A stretch of DNA of 35,614 bases, from positions 1 through 35,614 of IMG/VR virus record IMGVR_UViG_3300011115_000144; one strand, 5' to 3'. Positions 6,749-16,867 of this stretch are shown one piece after another. The translations under genes and the position numbers were made by a program. The number at the start of each line of letters is the position of its first letter. Positions within the stretch are counted from its first letter, which is position 1. This DNA is from a virus. Below the pieces are notes generated by a model that did not search any database, was not told the origin of the DNA, and worked only from the letters and a program-made list of their open reading frames with translations.

Positions 6749-6808
6749 GGGGGGCGACTAGCTCGACGGAGCGAACGGGGTAACCGTCAGCCCCCGTTGC
6801 CCCCCTTT
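6749..6808 (+). ncRNA. Compact three-way-junction RNA element (possible terminator/attenuator)
   Basis: Between the HTH gene and the primase the sequence can fold into three stems. The outer stem pairs GGGGGGC (6749-6755) with GCCCCCC (6799-6805), seven base pairs. Inside it, GCTC (6761-6764) pairs with GAGC (6769-6772) around a GACG loop, and AACGGGG (6774-6780) pairs with CCCCGTT (6792-6798) around an 11-base loop. Outer and inner stems abut directly at 6798/6799. TTTCTCTT follows, a weak U-tract. An alternative small hairpin ACGG/CCGT (6775-6778 with 6784-6787) would compete. It could end or attenuate transcription before the primase, or act as a structured leader. It resembles a tRNA without a T-arm but is not called one. 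Confidence 0.55.
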
Positions 6809-6831
6809 CTCTTGACGTGCTTGGACACAAT

Positions 6832-9669
6832 ATGGCGGATGTTCGTTTGCTTGAGGCAGTCGTCCCTTCAGAAGAAGGGTTCTACTGCGTACTGGGGTTA
6901 AAGAATGGAACGCACCATTCACAGACCCACCACAAAACAATTGAAGAAGTAGAAGCCGAAGCTGACCGTTTGGTGGCCAACGGCGTAGATGTATTTTTTG
7001 GTTGCGGTAAGTTCATAACTGACGAAAACCGGGACGCCGCCAACTGCGGGTTCATGAAGTCGTTCTTCTTGGATATCGACTGCGGCGAAGACAAAGCCAA
7101 ACCGGACAAGCGTGGGCGCATCAAAGGGTATGTGAATCAGGCTACTGGGTTGGAAGCACTTAAATACCTGTGCAAGACCTTGAACCTGCCTCGACCGACC
7201 ATTGTGAATTCTGGTCGTGGTTGGCACGTTTACTGGCCGCTGACCGAAGCTGTTGCGAAAGACAAGTGGCTGCCTGTAGCCGAGACTTTCAAAGCCAAGT
7301 GCCTTGAATACAAGTTTATTGTTGACCCCGCTGTACCAGCAGATGCAGCGCGGGTGTTGCGGATTCCGGGGACAAAGAACTTCAAGGACAACCCACCGCA
7401 TGACGTTGTCCTGATGCACTTGTCTCAGCCCATGACGTTCGATGACTTTGCTCAGCGTATGGGGCCGTTGGTAGATGTGAAGAAGCCTTATGCCCCCAAG
7501 GAATTAGACGATTTCACAAAAGCCGTTATCGGCAATAAGCAATCACGGTTTCGCACCATCTTGAAGAAGACCGCCGATGGCCTTGGATGTGAGCAGATGC
7601 GGTTGATTGTCGAAGACCAACCCAACATCGAAGAGCCATTGTGGCGGGCGGGGCTGTCCGTCGCCCAGCATTGTATAGACCGGGACAAAGCGATTCACCT
7701 GATATCCAAGAATCACCCGAAGTACGACGCAGCTGCAACAGAACGCAAAGCCAGCCAGATCAAAGGCCCTTACACCTGCGACACATTCGATTCGTTTGCG
7801 CCGGGCCTATGCGACAAGTGTATTCACCGAGGCAAGATCAAGTCCCCCATCGTGCTGGGTCATGAGATCGCCAAATCCGAAGCTGGGGAAGTTATTGCGT
7901 ACCAGCCCACAAGCAGCGACGCTACGCCCGTTGAATTTGTAGTACCGAAGTTACCAAATAGGTATTTTCGTGGAAAAAACGGTGGTATCTACAAACACAT
8001 GAAAGAAGACAACGAAGAAGGCGATGGCCCTTCTGTTGCCCTTGTGTATGAGTACGACCTGTTCGTTACGAAGCGGATGTATGACCCCGCACTGGGCGAA
8101 ACAATCCTGATCCGTCGGGTGCTTCCAAGAGATGGGGCCAAGGAATTTTCTGTGCCGTTGGTAGATGCACTGAGTAAAGATGAGTTGAGGAAAACCGTTT
8201 CTTTTCACGGTGTCATTGCGGGCGTGGCCCAGATGGCCTTGATTTTGGATTACCTGATGCAATGTGCAAAAGAACTACAAATAACACAAGAGGTGGAGAT
8301 GATGAGGCTGCAATTTGGTTGGGCAGATGATGACGAGAAGTTCATATTGGGTAACAGGGAGATCGGGGCGAGCTATGTTAAATACAGCCCCCCGTCCAAG
8401 GCTACACGGGAAATTGCCCACGCCCTGCGCCCGGTTGGGTCGTTGGAAGAGTGGAAGGACATCATCAATGTCTACGACATGCCAAACTTTGAACCGCATG
8501 CCTTCGCGGTTTTCTCAGCGTTTGGCGCACCGCTCATCAAGTTCATGGGCATCAAAGGCGGCATCATCAACCTTATAAATAATAAATCTGGTACAGGCAA
8601 GTCAACCATACTTCAGGTTATGAACAGCGTGTGGGGACACCCAGATGAGCTGATGCTGCAATGGAAAGATACCCTAAACGTAAAGCTTCATCGTATGGCG
8701 GTCATGTGCAACCTCCCGCTGGGCGTGGACGAGATTACAAAAATGAGCGGGGATGACTTCTCCGATTTGGCCTACAGCGTGACGCAAGGCGCTCCGCGCC
8801 GTAGGATGAAGGCGGCTTCCAACGAGGAGCGTGAGTCACAAGGATTCTGGGCAACCATGATGGTGGCTACCTCCAACGCCAGTATGACCGACAAACTGGA
8901 GTCCTTGAAGTCAACGTCAGAAGGCGAGTTGATGCGTCTGATGCAGTACAAGATTGATCCCACCAACAACCTTGACAAGGCCACAGCCAAGCATATCTTT
9001 GGTCGGTTGCACAGTAACTACGGGTTGGCTGGCTTGCCATACGCCCAGTACCTTGTGCAGAATCTTGAGGAAGTTACTGAAACCGCGCTGAAAGTACAAG
9101 ATCGGTTTGACAAGGCTGTAAATATAGACGCCCGGGAACGATTTTGGTCAGGCATGGCGGCTGCAAATCTGACAGGCGGGCTGATCGCCCACAAACTTGG
9201 GCTGCACAACATAAACCACAAACGGGTATTTGACTGGGCGGTGGCTGAGATTTCTGACATGCAGACGGCCACGAAACTGTCGTTCAACGATTACGCCACC
9301 GTAGTTGGTGAGTTCTTGTTGAAGCACAACCTGAACATTTTGGTGGTCAACAAGTACAGCAGCTCCAAGTCAGGGATTGCCGCTGCCCCGCTGCTGTTAC
9401 CCCGTGGGGCGCTGGTTGTCCGGTACGAGCCGGATACACGCCGTATATACATAATCCGTCAATCTCTCAAAGACTTCTGCGTGCTTAAACAGGTCACCTT
9501 CACCGACTTGCTGACCGCCTTAAACAAGACGGGCGCGTTCATCTCCGAGGTTCGTACCCGACTGGATATCGGTACAGACATCAGCGCCCCGCCGGTGGTG
9601 GCGTTGGAGTTTGATTCCGACCTGTTGGGCGTTGCACCCAGTGTTGACCTGCAAGGCGATGAGGATTGA
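6832..9669 (+). CDS. Primase-helicase fusion (archaeo-eukaryotic-type primase plus DUF927-like ATPase)
   Basis: This 945-residue enzyme joins two replication functions. The N-terminal part reads as an archaeo-eukaryotic-type primase: FFLDIDCG with the metal-binding D81-x-D83, NSGRGWH (126-132) and DAARVLRIPGTKN (171-183). Cys residues (CDTF, CDKC) lie near the domain border. The C-terminal part is an ATPase of the DUF927/helicase type with Walker A SGTGKST (586-592) and Walker B LGVDE (D633, E634). It should synthesise primers and unwind DNA at the fork. The ATG at 6832 is preferred over an in-frame GTG at 6817; neither has a strong ribosome site, which may mean control by the upstream RNA structure. 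It overlaps the next gene by 11 bases. Confidence 0.85.
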   Translation: MADVRLLEAVVPSEEGFYCVLGLKNGTHHSQTHHKTIEEVEAEADRLVANGVDVFFGCGKFITDENRDAANCGFMKSFFLDIDCGEDKAKPDKRGRIKGYVNQATGLEALKYLCKTLNLPRPTIVNSGRGWHVYWPLTEAVAKDKWLPVAETFKAKCLEYKFIVDPAVPADAARVLRIPGTKNFKDNPPHDVVLMHLSQPMTFDDFAQRMGPLVDVKKPYAPKELDDFTKAVIGNKQSRFRTILKKTADGLGCEQMRLIVEDQPNIEEPLWRAGLSVAQHCIDRDKAIHLISKNHPKYDAAATERKASQIKGPYTCDTFDSFAPGLCDKCIHRGKIKSPIVLGHEIAKSEAGEVIAYQPTSSDATPVEFVVPKLPNRYFRGKNGGIYKHMKEDNEEGDGPSVALVYEYDLFVTKRMYDPALGETILIRRVLPRDGAKEFSVPLVDALSKDELRKTVSFHGVIAGVAQMALILDYLMQCAKELQITQEVEMMRLQFGWADDDEKFILGNREIGASYVKYSPPSKATREIAHALRPVGSLEEWKDIINVYDMPNFEPHAFAVFSAFGAPLIKFMGIKGGIINLINNKSGTGKSTILQVMNSVWGHPDELMLQWKDTLNVKLHRMAVMCNLPLGVDEITKMSGDDFSDLAYSVTQGAPRRRMKAASNEERESQGFWATMMVATSNASMTDKLESLKSTSEGELMRLMQYKIDPTNNLDKATAKHIFGRLHSNYGLAGLPYAQYLVQNLEEVTETALKVQDRFDKAVNIDARERFWSGMAAANLTGGLIAHKLGLHNINHKRVFDWAVAEISDMQTATKLSFNDYATVVGEFLLKHNLNILVVNKYSSSKSGIAAAPLLLPRGALVVRYEPDTRRIYIIRQSLKDFCVLKQVTFTDLLTALNKTGAFISEVRTRLDIGTDISAPPVVALEFDSDLLGVAPSVDLQGDED

Positions 9670-9901: not shown

Positions 9902-9930
9902 GCCCCGCCGTAAAAAGCGGGGCGTTTTTT
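9902..9930 (+). terminator. Intrinsic terminator between convergent arms
   Basis: GCCCCGC (9902-9908) pairs perfectly with GCGGGGC (9917-9923) around an eight-base CGTAAAAA loop, followed by G and six T (9925-9930). This is a classical rho-independent terminator for plus-strand transcription, ending the early arm. On the minus strand the hairpin is not followed by a U-tract, so it should act mainly in one direction. It overlaps the last two bases of the late-arm stop codon. Confidence 0.9.
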
Positions 9931-12900
9931 ATTGTTCGGCCTTATATTTATCCCAAGGCCCTGCTGACGTTGATGCTGGCGCTGCTGGTTGTTCCTTGCG
10001 CGTGATCTTGTCTATGTATGTTTCGCTGAACAAGTACCGCAGCTTGGGGTCAATATACAAACCATGATCAGTTTGCGCGGACTTCTCGTACTTACCTTCT
10101 ATAGATTTAAAGATGGTGTCGATTTCTATCGCAATTGTGGGGTACTTCTTGTTGAACTTTATTACCTTCTCGATTGCTTTCTGTATTCCCTTTTCGTCGT
10201 TGGTCATCACAGTCAACCCGATAATGTTCAACAGGTTTTCCCGTTTCATTTTGATTTCTTCAGCCATGCCTTTTATCTTGATGTTGCGGAATTGAATCTC
10301 CGCAAGATCAGCAGACCGTATACCCAATGACTGCATCATCAACTCAAAAGGAGTGAACTCTTTCTTCATAATGTCACCCTGCAAAGTCCGCGCACCTTCA
10401 GTTGCGTACCGCGCAGTGACCAACGGTTGTTTTGCAAAACCCGGGAGAAGAGTTTCAAGGGCGCGATCACCGTGCCCTGTGTTGTAAAGCTTAACCGCCC
10501 GAGCAGCGGTTGGAAAAAGGCCAACAGTTGGCCCCAGTATGCCCACCAAAAAAGCCTCTACCTGAGCTTCTGCGTCTAGATTATTCCGGCCTTCTCTAAG
10601 CCACATACCGTCTAGTTTCAAACGACTATGCAGATCAACACCGGCTGCGTTGCCAATACCACGCGACACCATCGTGCCCATGTTTACACCAAACGTATTG
10701 ACCGCCCAGTCTGCAAACGCAAGCTCAAAATCAAATGGTGGATCATCATCGTCATCGTCGCCAAAAGCTGCGCAAGCCTCAACGATAAACGCCACGGTTG
10801 AAAAGCCCCAGAGACCAGTGACTCCAGAGAAGATAGCTGCCATACCCATCGTGCCGACAAAGCGGGCGCGGGCTTCACGTTTTTCTTCCTCGGGCAAGTT
10901 ACCAAACGAGTTCCAAGCGTTGCGGGCCAAGAACCAAGTCATCTGCTGGGGGAACTGCTTAAATTGAAGAACAATTCTGGCCAAAGAACTTTGTAAGAAA
11001 CGAGGTTTGTTGGTTGACGAGTAATCAAACATGGCCCGTTGGGTCAAGTCTTTGGCCTCAGCAATAGATTCCGCAAATGCCTGTTGCTTGTTGGGATAGT
11101 TTGCTCGCTTTTCCATAGCTGACCTGAAAGCAGACATGGCCATCACTTCGCGGTTGAATCGTTCGGCGTGATGGAAAGCGTAGGCGACAACCTGCATGGC
11201 CCGGTTGGGTATGCTGGAGTATTCAGACGTTGGGTTTGCAGCCAAACCAGATTGGTCATAAGCTGCGGTTATATCAATGATGCCATCGGCAACAAAACGG
11301 TTATAAGCTGCTTTGTCTACAGCGGACAAACTTGTAGACCTATCGAGCGATGGTGACAAAAGTTTTGAGTCTATAACCCGCCCGCCAGATTCAATCCCAA
11401 AACCAGTAGCCATGATTTCAGCTACAGTTTTGCTCATATTGAATAGCACGCGCCCTGTGGCCCTTGTGTAACTCATGCCCGGGTTCGCACGAACTTGCTG
11501 GCCAATCAGTGTAGGTGCGCCGATCATCACGCCACCCATCACGTTAACAAGCGCAGAACCAATTGAGGTCAAGTAGTAAACAAACCCAATGTTAGAGAAG
11601 TACGACGTCCACTTGCCGGTGTCAGTTGGGTTGAGCATTGCAACGAGACGGTTATCAATCTCTCGAACGTAACTGCGCAACTCGTCATTCTCAGCAGTCA
11701 GTGTTTCATCGTATTTTGCGCCGGGGGTGAAGCGACCTTTGATCTGTGACCGGGCTGCATCCAACTGAGAGAACATTTCTGGGGAATACTCCAGACGGGC
11801 CATCTGATAGGCCATACTGAATGATGATGATGCAAAGCTGCGCAGCGCATCTTCAGAATACCCCGCAATACTTTTGCGGTGAATGAAAGCGTTACGGATA
11901 CTGCGATCTGGTTGGTTGGCCAAGTATGTCTGGTACAGGTTGTCTTTCAATTCAGATTTGCGCTTATCAGCTTCTGCCGGTGTAAGACCTTTTATGTCCA
12001 TACCGTCAATAGCGGCAAACGAGTTTTTCAAAAACTCAGACTGCCGAGCATGCAAATCCATTTGCTTCTGGTAGTCATCACCTATGTTTGTGCCTATTGT
12101 TTGTTCCAAAGCATCACGGGCAGCTTGATTGGGTTCTTGATCCAGACGAGCTTGCAAGTGCGCTTCTCTTGCGGCTTGGGATTCAAACATATAGTATTCG
12201 CGGTTTGCCCCCTTACCAATCTGATACCAGAATTGGCCAAAGCGCATTAGCGGGAAGTAAGGCCCTGCCCGCTTACCTTTTTCGAACTCGTTACGAATCT
12301 CTGTGATTGATGCCTCAGACACGCCCATCTTCCGCATGAATATAATGCGTTGGTTCATTAGGCGTTTGTAATTACTGTACCGGCGCTCGTAGAAATCACG
12401 AACCTCTCTATAGATAGTTCGGGCTTCTGGGTTGAGTTTCCTCCAGTCAGTAATCAACTGCTGGTTTTTAGCAATTTGAGCAGGCGTGGCTTTGTCTGGA
12501 TCAATCTCCAAAATTGTGGCGCTGTGCATAACAACACCAAGCTGTCTAGACATATCTGGGTCAGCAGCTTGCAGGCGCTCCCATTTACGAGATATATCAC
12601 CAGACTCTTTAAGTATTTGTGACTTGCGGGCCAGAAACTTCTCTGTCACGTTAATGAAGTTACCAATTTGCGGGATACGGCCATCAACCAAATCATTGAT
12701 CTGGCGCAATGTCAGCAGGCCAAGATATGCGTTACGAGCAGACCAGTCCATACTGCGTATCTCGCGCATCTTTCCTTTCGTCCAAGTACTGGCCATCATC
12801 CACCGCTTAATGGTGGATGGCTGGTTTGGCATGCCCTTGGGTACAACCTTGGCTCTGCCCGGCCTTTGGGTGGCCATAGCTTTTGGCCCCGTAGTCACCT

Positions 12901-15900
12901 GCATGCCTTCCAAGGACATTGTGCCCGCCATCATTGCATCAACAGCAAGCATGGCTTCAACCATCACGTTGCTTGGCGCTCCGGGCTTTACGTTGAACAG
13001 TTTACGTATGGCATCAGTAAACCGGTTGTATAAGGAGAATGGTGCAGCCTTGTATCGGATAGAACGCAACAACGCTTGGAATTCCGGATTCGTAAGCGCT
13101 TCAGACAAAAACTCATGGATGTCTTGCAAACCGTAGACGGTAGACAAGTCCACGCCCTTTTGCGAGAACATGTTTTTGGAATACTCATACAACTCATTGA
13201 GTCGTTCGTAACCTTGGCGCTGTATACCAACGAGTCGGTCGTTGTTGTCTATCAAATGCGACGCAGCTGCGTGCAAGGTTTCGTGTAACAACAGGTGGTT
13301 TGTAAGATGGCCCGCGCCTTGACGCATAACAACGGTATCGGTTGCTGGGTCATACTTACCATTCCACGAAAATTGTTTGTTAAGTAACTCAGACACACTG
13401 TTGAGCAACTGCTGATTAGATTCAGTCGCGCCATTTTTATCCAGCGTGTCTTGAATTGTTTCAACAGCGTAAACCACATTACGCAACTTACCGGACTTGA
13501 GTGCATCAATGATGGTTGCCTGCTCTTCCTGTGGATACAGCGATACAACCAAATCACGCAACGAATTAAGCCGTTCCTCCAACGACTCCTTAACTTTCGG
13601 GTCGTTTGATAACGACTCCATAGTGTCAGGATCAATCAGACGAGTCTTAGCGGTAAAGTCGGTGTCTAATATGCGTTGAGCCAATTCAGCATAGTACTTG
13701 TTGTTCTTTGCTTGTGCCAGTAATTCAAGAGCTTCGCGGGTCTTACCTTCAATCAACAGGCGACGAATAGCCGGATGCACTTCAGTGAGCATCTCAACGG
13801 TTGGCAGATTCTTTGTTTCTACTGCGGTGAACGGTTCTAAAGTCTCTTCGCCTTCGCCTATTTCAGTTTCTGCTTCCTCCTGCATCTGGGAGAGGCGTTC
13901 TTTAGCGGGCCTCTTTCTACGAGGAGCTTTGGGTAACTTGGCCCCGTTCTTTTCGGCGGCCTCACGTTTCTTTTCTGCTTCGTATTCCAACCTACTGTTG
14001 TAATCAGATATGGCTTTCTCAAACTTTTTGGCTTCTGCTGCGTTTTGTTTGTGTTCCTCCACCAATTCGTTGAGCAACTCAACTGTATTGGGGTCAAGGT
14101 TGGCTTCAATCCATGCGCGGAAATCCTGCGCGTATTTGCCACCTTCTTTGTAAAACGTGGAATTAGCGCCGTAATGTTTTGGGTCAATCTCAAAGTACGC
14201 AAGGTCAAACGCCAAATCCCTGAGTGCATCACCAAATGTGCTGCGATTCAGGTTTGTTAAGTATGTGATGGCAGCTTGCGCTTGTGGGGAAATTTTTCCC
14301 GTCATCTGCTTGAGGATCAAAGCAGCCGCACGCAGTTTGTTGTCGTTGATATCACGCACCACTTCTTTGGTGGCCTGATTTGGGCGTCGAGGTTTGACAC
14401 CTATCGGTGTCTCAAACGCTTGTGTCACTGTGGATGTGGTGGTAATAGTCTCTTGGTACGGCAGCTTTGTACCGGTAACTTGAGATGGGCGCATCTTGCT
14501 TGTTCGTATATTGGCAAGTGGCCCTTCCCCTGTAGCCACCATCTGGTCTACATAAGATTGAACCTGTGCGCTGAACTCATCCATACCTCGACGAGTGGTT
14601 AGGTCTGGTAGCCCTGCTTTTTGCAGCAGTGCTGATTGTGTTTCTGGAGTTGCGCCTTGAAGCGCGCTCAATAGTTTGTCTAACTGATCTTGTCCTCCTA
14701 CACGGCGGGCAAGATAGTCAAGCATCTGCTGTGAACCAGCGCTGGTGGTCTCGCCCGGCTGGGCAATATCAAACTCCAGCATGGTGTCAGCAGCGGTGTT
14801 CTTTGAGTTACCGTGACGTTCTTGCTCCGCAGGAGAATCAGATGCAGACTGAATGGCATCAAAGAAGCTTTTGATCTTGCCACCTTCTTTTGTCTGTACA
14901 ACGTGTTCTGTGTCTACGAGCGGGGCTTTTTCAAATCTTTCTCTGGCAGGGACACCTTGACGTGCGGGTTCTGTTACTTGTTCACGCGCTGTTTCATCAA
15001 CTTCTTCTACGGTTTCAGTTGGTTTTAATTGTTCAGTAGTTTCTTTTTCTGCTGCTCTACGCTCTCGCATAGCATCAGCATTTTCCTGTTGGATTTTTTC
15101 GTTGTTAAACAAATCACCCTGCATTGCACGGGGCTGGCCAACGCCTCTGCGCAGCATATCAATCGCCTGATCAATCTCAGCATTTGATCGTTGCGAAAAG
15201 TTTTGAATGATGGAGTCCCGGCTTTTGAGGGCTTGGCCAGCCGACATGCCAGCAAGGCGCATGCTGATGATCGTTGCATCATCAAACCCACCAGAGTCAA
15301 TCTTCTCTTGGATGCGGGCGCGATTGTCTTCCAACTCTGCAATTGCCCCATCTACGCTTTGCCCAGACAGCGCCATAGCATTTTTCATGCGGCGTGCAGC
15401 GCCTTGGAACACACCAAACAAGTTGCCTTGCATCCCGCGTGGTTGGCCAACATTTGGTTCAAGTCTGGCCAAAGCTGCTGAGCCATCAAACACAGGGTTC
15501 TTAAGTTGATTGGCCAACCCTTTGCTGCGGATAAAGCCCATGTTGGAATCAACAACTTCAGCTAAATCCTTCAGAATTAGCGCACGCTGATTCATGCCCG
15601 CTTGATCTATGCGGCCTTGAGGAAGAGAGTTGTACTCATCCCGCAACTGCGTGTACTGCCGTACAAAATCGCCATAGGCTTCAAGAGATTGCGCAGGTGC
15701 AGTGGCGGCAGGTGTAGCAGGTGCGCTTGGGGCTGCTGTAGTTGTAGCACCAGTATCTACATCTTCAAACAGACCGGGCGGTTCGGTCGATGACGGCAAG
15801 GTTTGATCGGCCTCACCATATTTTGCAGATACGGTGCTTGTTCCCGCATTGAGATTTGTTGCATCCATCGCATCTGCTGCCCGCTGCGCGTAGAGATCAA

Positions 15901-16867
15901 CTTGTGACTGTTGCCCAGAAGGCTGTGTAACGGGTCGCCCGCCTTCTTGGTCTGCAAACAAGCCAGCAGGTTCTTGGATGTCTTGAGTAAGAGAGTCCAA
16001 AATTGTTTGGCGCTGCTCTTCAGTTGTTTTGGGTTTTTTAGGGGCAAATATTTCTTTTGCACCTTGTACCCCAGCACCTAAACCACCGCCCACTATTGCA
16101 GCCTCTGCCCCACGGGTAAGCGCTTCTTCTGCGCTTAAACCTTTTTTGGTTCCTGCGGCTTCACCAAGATACGATGCTTCTTCTTCAGCGGCTTCAGTGC
16201 CCGCTTGAATACCTGTTTCTTTCGCAATTCGCCCGGTTATAGAAATACCCTGAGTAGGTTTAAACAAACCTTTAGTGGCAAACGCTTCAAGTTTGCTTTC
16301 AATAATAGCGGCAGTAGCTGCTGCGGTTACATCACCAACAGTAGCGTCGTCAAGAGTTTTTTCGTCGTTCTTAACACGCTCATCCAAAATTTCTTTTGTA
16401 CGCGCCATAATGTAGGCGGTAGGGACTCTTACTGCGGCAACCATATCAGGCATGGACGTTATTACCCGTTCGGTAATAAAAGGAACAGCTTTAAGCGGGT
16501 TGCTTCCCAGTTCTTTAAGTTGCGTACTTGGTTGGTAACCCAAGCTCTCATCAAAGCCTTTCAACGATTTAGCCCAGTCAAACAGAGGCTGAAGCTGCTT
16601 TTTGTTTTTAATATCTTCTTCTGGTATGCCTGACAAAGGCACAGCAAGTTCTAATTTATCCCCAACCCGTTCGGCAACTTCAGCTACCGAATCCACAAAA
16701 GCGCCGGTTAAAGAAGCCGTGCGACCAACCAACCCAATAAGTGGGTTTGACGTAGTTTCTTGTGGTTGTTGCGGTGGTAAGGTTGGTTCGGATGACGCAA
16801 CGGCGTACTTATCCCAAGGCCCCGAAGTTGGGCCTGCTTGATATTTATCCCAAGGCCCAGTAGCCAT
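9929..16867 (-). CDS. Giant polyvalent virion protein (zincin, PLxRFG) of 2312 residues
   Basis: This is the largest gene and the last of the late arm. The motif GPWDKY occurs at residues 4-9, 16-21 and again at 2303-2308, framing the whole protein. A metallopeptidase (zincin) site HETLH spans 1195-1199, with a downstream HEFLSEAL segment that could supply the third ligand. PLMRFG lies at 1539-1544, the signature of PLxRFG-domain polyvalent proteins. Hydrophobic stretches lie near residues 1755-1785 and 2005-2035, followed by a run of six Asp. Long Gln/Ala/Glu-rich helical segments fill the rest. Polyvalent proteins of this kind are carried in virions and delivered with DNA; the peptidase may act on peptidoglycan, on virion proteins or in the host. 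It lies four bases after the 763-residue protein. Confidence 0.85.
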   Translation of the reverse strand: MATGPWDKYQAGPTSGPWDKYAVASSEPTLPPQQPQETTSNPLIGLVGRTASLTGAFVDSVAEVAERVGDKLELAVPLSGIPEEDIKNKKQLQPLFDWAKSLKGFDESLGYQPSTQLKELGSNPLKAVPFITERVITSMPDMVAAVRVPTAYIMARTKEILDERVKNDEKTLDDATVGDVTAAATAAIIESKLEAFATKGLFKPTQGISITGRIAKETGIQAGTEAAEEEASYLGEAAGTKKGLSAEEALTRGAEAAIVGGGLGAGVQGAKEIFAPKKPKTTEEQRQTILDSLTQDIQEPAGLFADQEGGRPVTQPSGQQSQVDLYAQRAADAMDATNLNAGTSTVSAKYGEADQTLPSSTEPPGLFEDVDTGATTTAAPSAPATPAATAPAQSLEAYGDFVRQYTQLRDEYNSLPQGRIDQAGMNQRALILKDLAEVVDSNMGFIRSKGLANQLKNPVFDGSAALARLEPNVGQPRGMQGNLFGVFQGAARRMKNAMALSGQSVDGAIAELEDNRARIQEKIDSGGFDDATIISMRLAGMSAGQALKSRDSIIQNFSQRSNAEIDQAIDMLRRGVGQPRAMQGDLFNNEKIQQENADAMRERRAAEKETTEQLKPTETVEEVDETAREQVTEPARQGVPARERFEKAPLVDTEHVVQTKEGGKIKSFFDAIQSASDSPAEQERHGNSKNTAADTMLEFDIAQPGETTSAGSQQMLDYLARRVGGQDQLDKLLSALQGATPETQSALLQKAGLPDLTTRRGMDEFSAQVQSYVDQMVATGEGPLANIRTSKMRPSQVTGTKLPYQETITTTSTVTQAFETPIGVKPRRPNQATKEVVRDINDNKLRAAALILKQMTGKISPQAQAAITYLTNLNRSTFGDALRDLAFDLAYFEIDPKHYGANSTFYKEGGKYAQDFRAWIEANLDPNTVELLNELVEEHKQNAAEAKKFEKAISDYNSRLEYEAEKKREAAEKNGAKLPKAPRRKRPAKERLSQMQEEAETEIGEGEETLEPFTAVETKNLPTVEMLTEVHPAIRRLLIEGKTREALELLAQAKNNKYYAELAQRILDTDFTAKTRLIDPDTMESLSNDPKVKESLEERLNSLRDLVVSLYPQEEQATIIDALKSGKLRNVVYAVETIQDTLDKNGATESNQQLLNSVSELLNKQFSWNGKYDPATDTVVMRQGAGHLTNHLLLHETLHAAASHLIDNNDRLVGIQRQGYERLNELYEYSKNMFSQKGVDLSTVYGLQDIHEFLSEALTNPEFQALLRSIRYKAAPFSLYNRFTDAIRKLFNVKPGAPSNVMVEAMLAVDAMMAGTMSLEGMQVTTGPKAMATQRPGRAKVVPKGMPNQPSTIKRWMMASTWTKGKMREIRSMDWSARNAYLGLLTLRQINDLVDGRIPQIGNFINVTEKFLARKSQILKESGDISRKWERLQAADPDMSRQLGVVMHSATILEIDPDKATPAQIAKNQQLITDWRKLNPEARTIYREVRDFYERRYSNYKRLMNQRIIFMRKMGVSEASITEIRNEFEKGKRAGPYFPLMRFGQFWYQIGKGANREYYMFESQAAREAHLQARLDQEPNQAARDALEQTIGTNIGDDYQKQMDLHARQSEFLKNSFAAIDGMDIKGLTPAEADKRKSELKDNLYQTYLANQPDRSIRNAFIHRKSIAGYSEDALRSFASSSFSMAYQMARLEYSPEMFSQLDAARSQIKGRFTPGAKYDETLTAENDELRSYVREIDNRLVAMLNPTDTGKWTSYFSNIGFVYYLTSIGSALVNVMGGVMIGAPTLIGQQVRANPGMSYTRATGRVLFNMSKTVAEIMATGFGIESGGRVIDSKLLSPSLDRSTSLSAVDKAAYNRFVADGIIDITAAYDQSGLAANPTSEYSSIPNRAMQVVAYAFHHAERFNREVMAMSAFRSAMEKRANYPNKQQAFAESIAEAKDLTQRAMFDYSSTNKPRFLQSSLARIVLQFKQFPQQMTWFLARNAWNSFGNLPEEEKREARARFVGTMGMAAIFSGVTGLWGFSTVAFIVEACAAFGDDDDDDPPFDFELAFADWAVNTFGVNMGTMVSRGIGNAAGVDLHSRLKLDGMWLREGRNNLDAEAQVEAFLVGILGPTVGLFPTAARAVKLYNTGHGDRALETLLPGFAKQPLVTARYATEGARTLQGDIMKKEFTPFELMMQSLGIRSADLAEIQFRNIKIKGMAEEIKMKRENLLNIIGLTVMTNDEKGIQKAIEKVIKFNKKYPTIAIEIDTIFKSIEGKYEKSAQTDHGLYIDPKLRYLFSETYIDKITRKEQPAAPASTSAGPWDKYKAEQ

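Follow-up and report, generated by a model that had tools for sequence, protein, structure and literature searches.

The leader of a DUF927 primase gene in a whole IMG/VR virus record of 35,614 bases (the window, that is, the whole stretch of DNA analysed) contains a compact RNA element which is, by its score, a divergent int-alpA RNA (Rfam RF02996). On sequence comparison, the best explanation of this element is a cis-acting two-state translation switch in the 5′ leader of the primase gene, a reading to which we assign a probability of roughly 60%. What the comparison shows is membership of the family (judged by score), the fold of the junction, the complementarity of one loop to two downstream sites together with its covariation, and a fixed spacing to the start codon. 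The RNA itself is a known family in an unusual place; the new part would be the evidence for an anti-RBS loop with two partners. If true, a bioinformatically catalogued RNA motif gains a concrete, testable mechanism, and a simple, re-codable translation switch would add a new regulatory layer to cross-talk among phages, satellites and hosts.

Fold and family of the element

The element occupies 6749–6808 and, according to RNAfold and its relatives, forms a three-way junction of P1, P2 and P3 (Table 1); the whole window holds one copy. The initial annotation described three stems of 7, 4 and 7 bp, and all of its pairings are present (GGGGGGC/GCCCCCC at 6749–6755/6799–6805, GCUC/GAGC at 6761–6764/6769–6772 and AACGGGG/CCCCGUU at 6774–6780/6792–6798), but the lengths supported by covariation are 10 bp for P1, 4 bp for P2 and 4–5 bp for P3, with AAC/GUU belonging to the outer stem. 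Its placement of the element between a small HTH gene and the primase is borne out by a PHROG 8 regulator upstream and a PF06048 primase downstream. The folding control that it proposed gave a divided answer: the 60-nt element folds with −35.4 kcal/mol (RNAfold; z = −3.9, 0 of 200 shuffles equally low), but with its flanks (101 nt) z is only −1.4, because a sequence so rich in G and C folds stably in any case.

Table 1. Features of the element and of the adjoining genes, in window coordinates
Feature	Position	Strand	Basis
Small HTH gene upstream of the element; stop 7 nt before P1	6499..6741	+	PHROG 8 transcriptional regulator, E 4e-5
P1 outer stem, 5′ strand GGGGGGCGAC	6749..6758	+	RNAfold; covariation in A4/A5/A6
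J12, conserved UA of the CUAG core	6759..6760	+	Invariant in primase group; retained in members found by covariance model
P2 hairpin GCUC-GACG-GAGC	6761..6772	+	Fold; covariation of P2 among model-found members
J23, conserved GAA(C)	6773..6776	+	Comparison of relatives
P3 hairpin, GGGGU 6777–6781 with GCCCC 6790–6794	6777..6794	+	RNAfold; five P3 pairs change both sides family-wide
P3 loop AACCGUCA, variable, putative anti-RBS sequence	6782..6789	+	Complementary to two downstream sites
P1 outer stem, 3′ strand GUUGCCCCCC	6796..6805	+	RNAfold; covariation
7-nt pyrimidine linker UUUCUCU; length is the family mode	6806..6812	+	Sequence; family comparison
Proximal site UGACG, predicted pseudoknot with loop CGUCA 6785–6789	6813..6817	+	Sequence; family test
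Weak hairpin GUG-CUUGGA-CAC, GGA 6823–6825 in loop	6817..6828	+	Sequence; counterpart of family SD hairpin P4
Primase start codon AUG	6832..6834	+	Alignment of relatives
DUF927 primase/helicase gene, the leader's own gene	6832..9669	+	Pfam PF06048, E 2e-30; PHROG 8841 DNA primase/helicase
Distal site UGGCGG; overlaps the start codon and complements loop CCGUCA 6784–6789	6833..6838	+	Sequence; family test

A whole-window Rfam scan matched RF02996 to 6751–6817 on the plus strand with 37.2 bits (E 2.5e-4), just above the curated cut-off of 35.8 bits, and no other Rfam family came near this match; the earlier remark that the element resembles no family is thereby refuted. A reading as a self-cleaving ribozyme was dropped, as the window contains no Rfam ribozyme match. 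Relatives from the primase group score 32–41 bits, two of them below the cut-off (L015, 35.1; L132, 32.0), while better-conserved relatives reach 50–79 bits. The window copy shares with int-alpA the three-way junction with three covarying stems, the conserved CUAG ... CGAA(AA) core, a P3 loop with CC and a similar length. It differs in a shorter P2 loop, in its loop code CCGUCA, in a second target that is the start codon, and in its place: the context after which RF02996 is named (integrase and alpA) is replaced by the HTH gene and the DUF927 primase, and no integrase was recognised among the scanned window proteins. This context is not part of the Rfam model, however, and high-scoring members also precede HNH and other genes, so that it does not define the family.

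The Rfam consensus ends on uaAgGG, which is complementary to its own loop CCuUua and corresponds to the proximal site described below. Because it stops exactly there, the pseudoknot could well have been known to those who built the model, which includes neither the distal pairing with the Shine–Dalgarno (SD) sequence or start codon nor the SD hairpin. Our literature search, which did not extend to the 2017 motif paper of Weinberg et al., found no functional study of RF02996.

Compensating base changes, the test proposed for homologues, were found throughout the junction. In 68 diverse members selected by the exact core, 94.9% of the cells of P1, P2 and P3 pair, both partners change at 14 of the 18 pairs (387 such cells compared with 110 in shuffles), and pairing falls to about 42% when the partner is slid by one column. 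P2 could hardly vary in this set because its members were picked by the exact core; among 68 members found by a covariance model P2 covaries too (whole structure 247 cells compared with 64), and its loop is replaceable (GACG, GAUGGCC, GGCUGAUCCCC). The kept parts of the core are CUA ahead of P2 and GAAAA behind it. The covariance model, R1, was built from 68 clearer members including the window copy, whose 51 bits with R1 consequently carry no meaning. Within the primase group we used alignment A5 (20 sequences) instead of A3 (30 sequences), in which the 3′ strand of P1 is misaligned for the MAT subgroup. In A5 the P1 pairs 10–55 (UA:9, CG:7, UG:2) and 11–54 (AU:11, GC:4, GU:4) change on both sides.

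One loop and two downstream sites

The P3 loop is hypervariable, and across the family it is complementary to two downstream sites, with both predicted pairings covarying. They were tested in 131 non-redundant members and 44 further independent ones, about 175 relatives. For the proximal site, which most often begins 6–8 nt after P1, strong helices occur in 105 of 131 members, compared with 31 when loops are swapped between elements (maximum 43, 200 permutations), and in 39 of the 44 independent members against 15.3 expected (maximum 23, 500 permutations). For the distal site, at the SD or start of the next gene, the counts are 71/124 against 31 (maximum 43, 300 permutations) and 25/44 against 13.2 expected (maximum 21, 500 permutations). 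Individual elements illustrate the pairing: CCUCCAAACG/CGUUUGGAGG in L066; loop ACACUCG with CGAGUGU, plus GGAGUGU at the SD, in L112; loop CCUUUCA with UGAAAGG, twice, in L178; and loop GCCUUA with UAAGGC in E. coli strain D5, where the SD, AAAGGU, lies within GCGU-GAAAGGUG-ACGC. The SD variant also tracks the loop: AAGGG accompanies CCCUU loops in 14/23 cases compared with 11/101 otherwise, GAGA accompanies UCUC in 8/13 compared with 11/111, and UGGG accompanies CCCA in 7/11 compared with 10/113.

Distal complementarity is weaker overall (median −8.4 compared with −9.5 kcal/mol for the proximal site) and absent in the loop classes CCCUG and CCCUA. A static structured leader, in which the junction and pseudoknot stabilise the 5′ end or fix the level of translation without switching, would suit the stronger and more widespread proximal pairing and the lack of a known effector. 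However, it leaves unexplained why the SD or start covaries with the same loop above chance in two independent sets, and we regard it as rather improbable.

The median distance from the end of P1 to the start codon is 32 nt in both sets, the stems of the tail hairpin exceed those of shuffled sequence in strength (10.4 compared with 7.9 ± 0.17), and the SD tetramer lies entirely inside the hairpin loop (P4) in 80 of 124 members. In the window, P4 has 3 bp only, and its counterpart is weak throughout the primase group. The initial annotation saw no good ribosome site before the primase; GGA is indeed weak, but it is correctly placed, 6 nt ahead of the AUG at 6832. The weak U-tract that it reported proved to be a linker of 7 nt that is rich in pyrimidines and poor in G, as in the family at large. 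This bears on its suggestion that the element might be a terminator or attenuator. An intrinsic one at this place, separating the HTH gene from the primase, could draw on the very stable, GC-rich P1 and on its distance of 7 nt from the stop codon of the preceding gene, a placement shared with many relatives. The 8 nt after P1 in the 131 relatives contain on average only about 45% U, with a G-poor composition, the element is followed by no U-run, a terminator search found no terminator-like site there, and conservation extends downstream as far as the start codon; termination is thus a very remote prospect. The alternative suggestion of a regulated leader is strengthened by the loop complementary to two sites and its covariation in the family.

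In the window copy, the predicted duplexes amount to −5.7 kcal/mol at the proximal site and −8.6 kcal/mol at the start codon. Both pairings are nearly invariant within its own primase group, so that column-wise covariation of the pseudoknot there is uninformative and the pairings of the window copy rest on the wider family. L009 preserves the proximal pair through a G–U change, and in a related primase subgroup the loop, proximal site and start differ jointly (UGCCGAA; UUCGGUG; AUGGCA). The distal site in the primase group corresponds to Met-Ala-Asp codons, which protein conservation could preserve by itself, and distal evidence from this group alone is therefore thin; the site is poor in L018 and pairs over 4 bp only in the MAT subgroup.

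Two alternative states had been anticipated from an ACGG/CCGU hairpin that would exclude the third stem. The hairpin is present at 6775–6787 within P3, with a UCGG/CCGA equivalent in the MAT subgroup, and a two-state leader is supported, but the competing states are those of the loop with the site after P1 or with the translation start. A hairpin of the ACGG/CCGU type is possible in the primase group only, where it could keep the loop from both targets as a third state.

A candidate switch and known RNA systems

In the proposed mechanism, the int-alpA RNA would form the 5′ leader of the primase gene, folded as the P1/P2/P3 junction, and the P3 loop would serve as an anti-RBS sequence that acts within the molecule and has two possible partners in the same transcript. 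Pairing with a decoy just 3′ of P1 would give a pseudoknot and leave the ribosome site free, while pairing with the ribosome site would block translation; this site is the SD for most family members and the start codon for those of the primase group. We infer that the proximal pairing is the ON and the distal pairing the OFF state, that the action is in cis and that an effector exists. The choice would presumably be set by something that recognises the junction core (CUA...GAAAA), or by the ribosome, transcription or ion conditions. In the known classes of three-way junctions, a J23 longer than J31 lays P3 alongside P1. J23 is the longer here, which would place P3 beside P1 and bring its loop to where the tail exits.

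Pseudoknots with the SD in the expression platform are found in the SAM-II, preQ1 and glutamine riboswitches, where a hairpin loop pairs with the tail next to the SD as proposed for this element. The conserved junction could likewise be a receptor. In contrast to these riboswitches, the loop code is not conserved but hypervariable, there are two alternative downstream partners and no ligand is known.

A second known layout is that of the C4 RNA of phages P1 and P7 and the CI RNA of satellite P4, with a long closing stem, two hairpins and loop targets near the ribosome site. The window element resembles C4/CI RNA (RF01695, targets RF03163) in its closing stem with two hairpins and in a downstream target near the ribosome site on the same transcript. 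It differs in a shorter P1, in one antisense loop instead of two, in a target 6–8 nt from the stem, and in giving no match to RF01695 in the window at the gathering threshold, nor around the element up to E 10. The P4 CI RNA was itself considered as an int-alpA RNA and rejected; the P4 CI region matches RF01695.

By analogy, the junction could be cut from the leader or made apart from it as an antisense small RNA of the C4/P4-immunity type, whose P3 loop would repress the downstream RBS in trans, also in incoming relatives, and thereby create immunity groups by loop code. We consider this unlikely, yet clearly more plausible than a static leader. Rfam lists RF02996 as an orphan motif of type 'sRNA', the same satellites also carry C4 RNA, whose general layout is alike (a stem, two hairpins and a target a short way downstream on one transcript), and loop codes differ between elements as immunity specificities would. 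Across the family, a −10-like hexamer is enriched directly before P1 (33% compared with 4–9% at shifted positions), which also indicates that the RNA often lies at the 5′ end of the transcript; no sigma-70 promoter match was found for the window leader. However, the tight linker and the start spacing of about 32 nt fit one folded molecule and are not needed in trans, a U-run that could end an sRNA after P1 is lacking, and the proximal site would always capture the mRNA's own loop. Judged from sequence, spacing and linker argue for a leader over a separate small RNA, in keeping with the cis-acting switch.

Distribution among mobile elements

The primase is encoded in 22 viral loci; 20 of these include the DNA upstream of its start, and all 20 carry the element. 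The core pattern CTAGCNCGACGN{0,1}GNGCGAA occurs in more than 119 viral contigs, and the pattern CTAGCYCGACGGRGCGAA in more than 119 prokaryotic contigs. Copies were detected with R1 in 18/185 genomes of Gammaproteobacteria, 37/200 of Burkholderiales and 13/146 of the Stutzerimonas order. A distant BLAST search of the window locus against named phages gave no match, and the core search in named phages gave a single clear one, in Pseudomonas phage Phipami28 (PV029746.1, 36085–36108). ABC-transporter and dehydrogenase genes surround this match, as would be seen in a record comprising a prophage plus host flank.

BLAST of the consensus found a copy in 213 of 5426 E. coli genomes, which makes the mechanism testable in common laboratory E. 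coli. Inspection of five E. coli loci, of which four lie at yicC and one near yhdJ, showed the order integrase gene, int-alpA RNA, orphan gene and HTH gene. Both of the two elements scanned for RNAs carry C4 and isrK RNAs. Satellite-like elements with int-alpA at the integrase end and C4 further in include L279 and L283 (E. coli), L176, L178 and L259; with isrK additionally present in those of E. coli, two different loop-based RNA controls occur within one element.

The element occupies key positions: in satellite-like elements it precedes the first gene behind the integrase, in phages it precedes free-standing homing endonuclease genes, and here it precedes the gene of a replication primase. 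Integrases are the upstream genes in at least 28 of 60 scanned members. The downstream genes of 115 members are mostly orphans, HNH or endonuclease VII being the commonest annotated kind; they are diverse, and no common function was found among them. The leader thus accompanies a range of genes, and each of these has a matching loop code. On viral contigs it often precedes HNH, GIY-YIG and endonuclease VII genes (L054, L059, L064, L083, L106, L111, L112, L124 and others), suggesting that mobile nuclease genes may carry it as an expression cassette. More generally, and tentatively, int-alpA RNAs could, instead of being sRNAs, form a widespread class of programmable switches that control translation in cis and serve phages, satellites and mobile nuclease genes, with a shared junction receptor and an exchangeable loop code that co-evolves with the decoy and the SD or start, possibly sensing the state of the helper phage or host.

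Two contigs and the window itself offer further observations. L055 also carries a Proteo-phage-1 RNA (RF03044, 69 bits) at 2653–2735 on the minus strand. In the window, a 2312-aa protein with a C-terminal match to DarB-like antirestriction families (PHROG 10089, E 3e-83) is encoded at 9929–16867 on the minus strand. L106 (minus strand) has two tandem int-alpA leaders, with cores at 1790 and 2154 of the reversed locus, 364 nt apart; their loop codes differ, and each is matched by its own tail.
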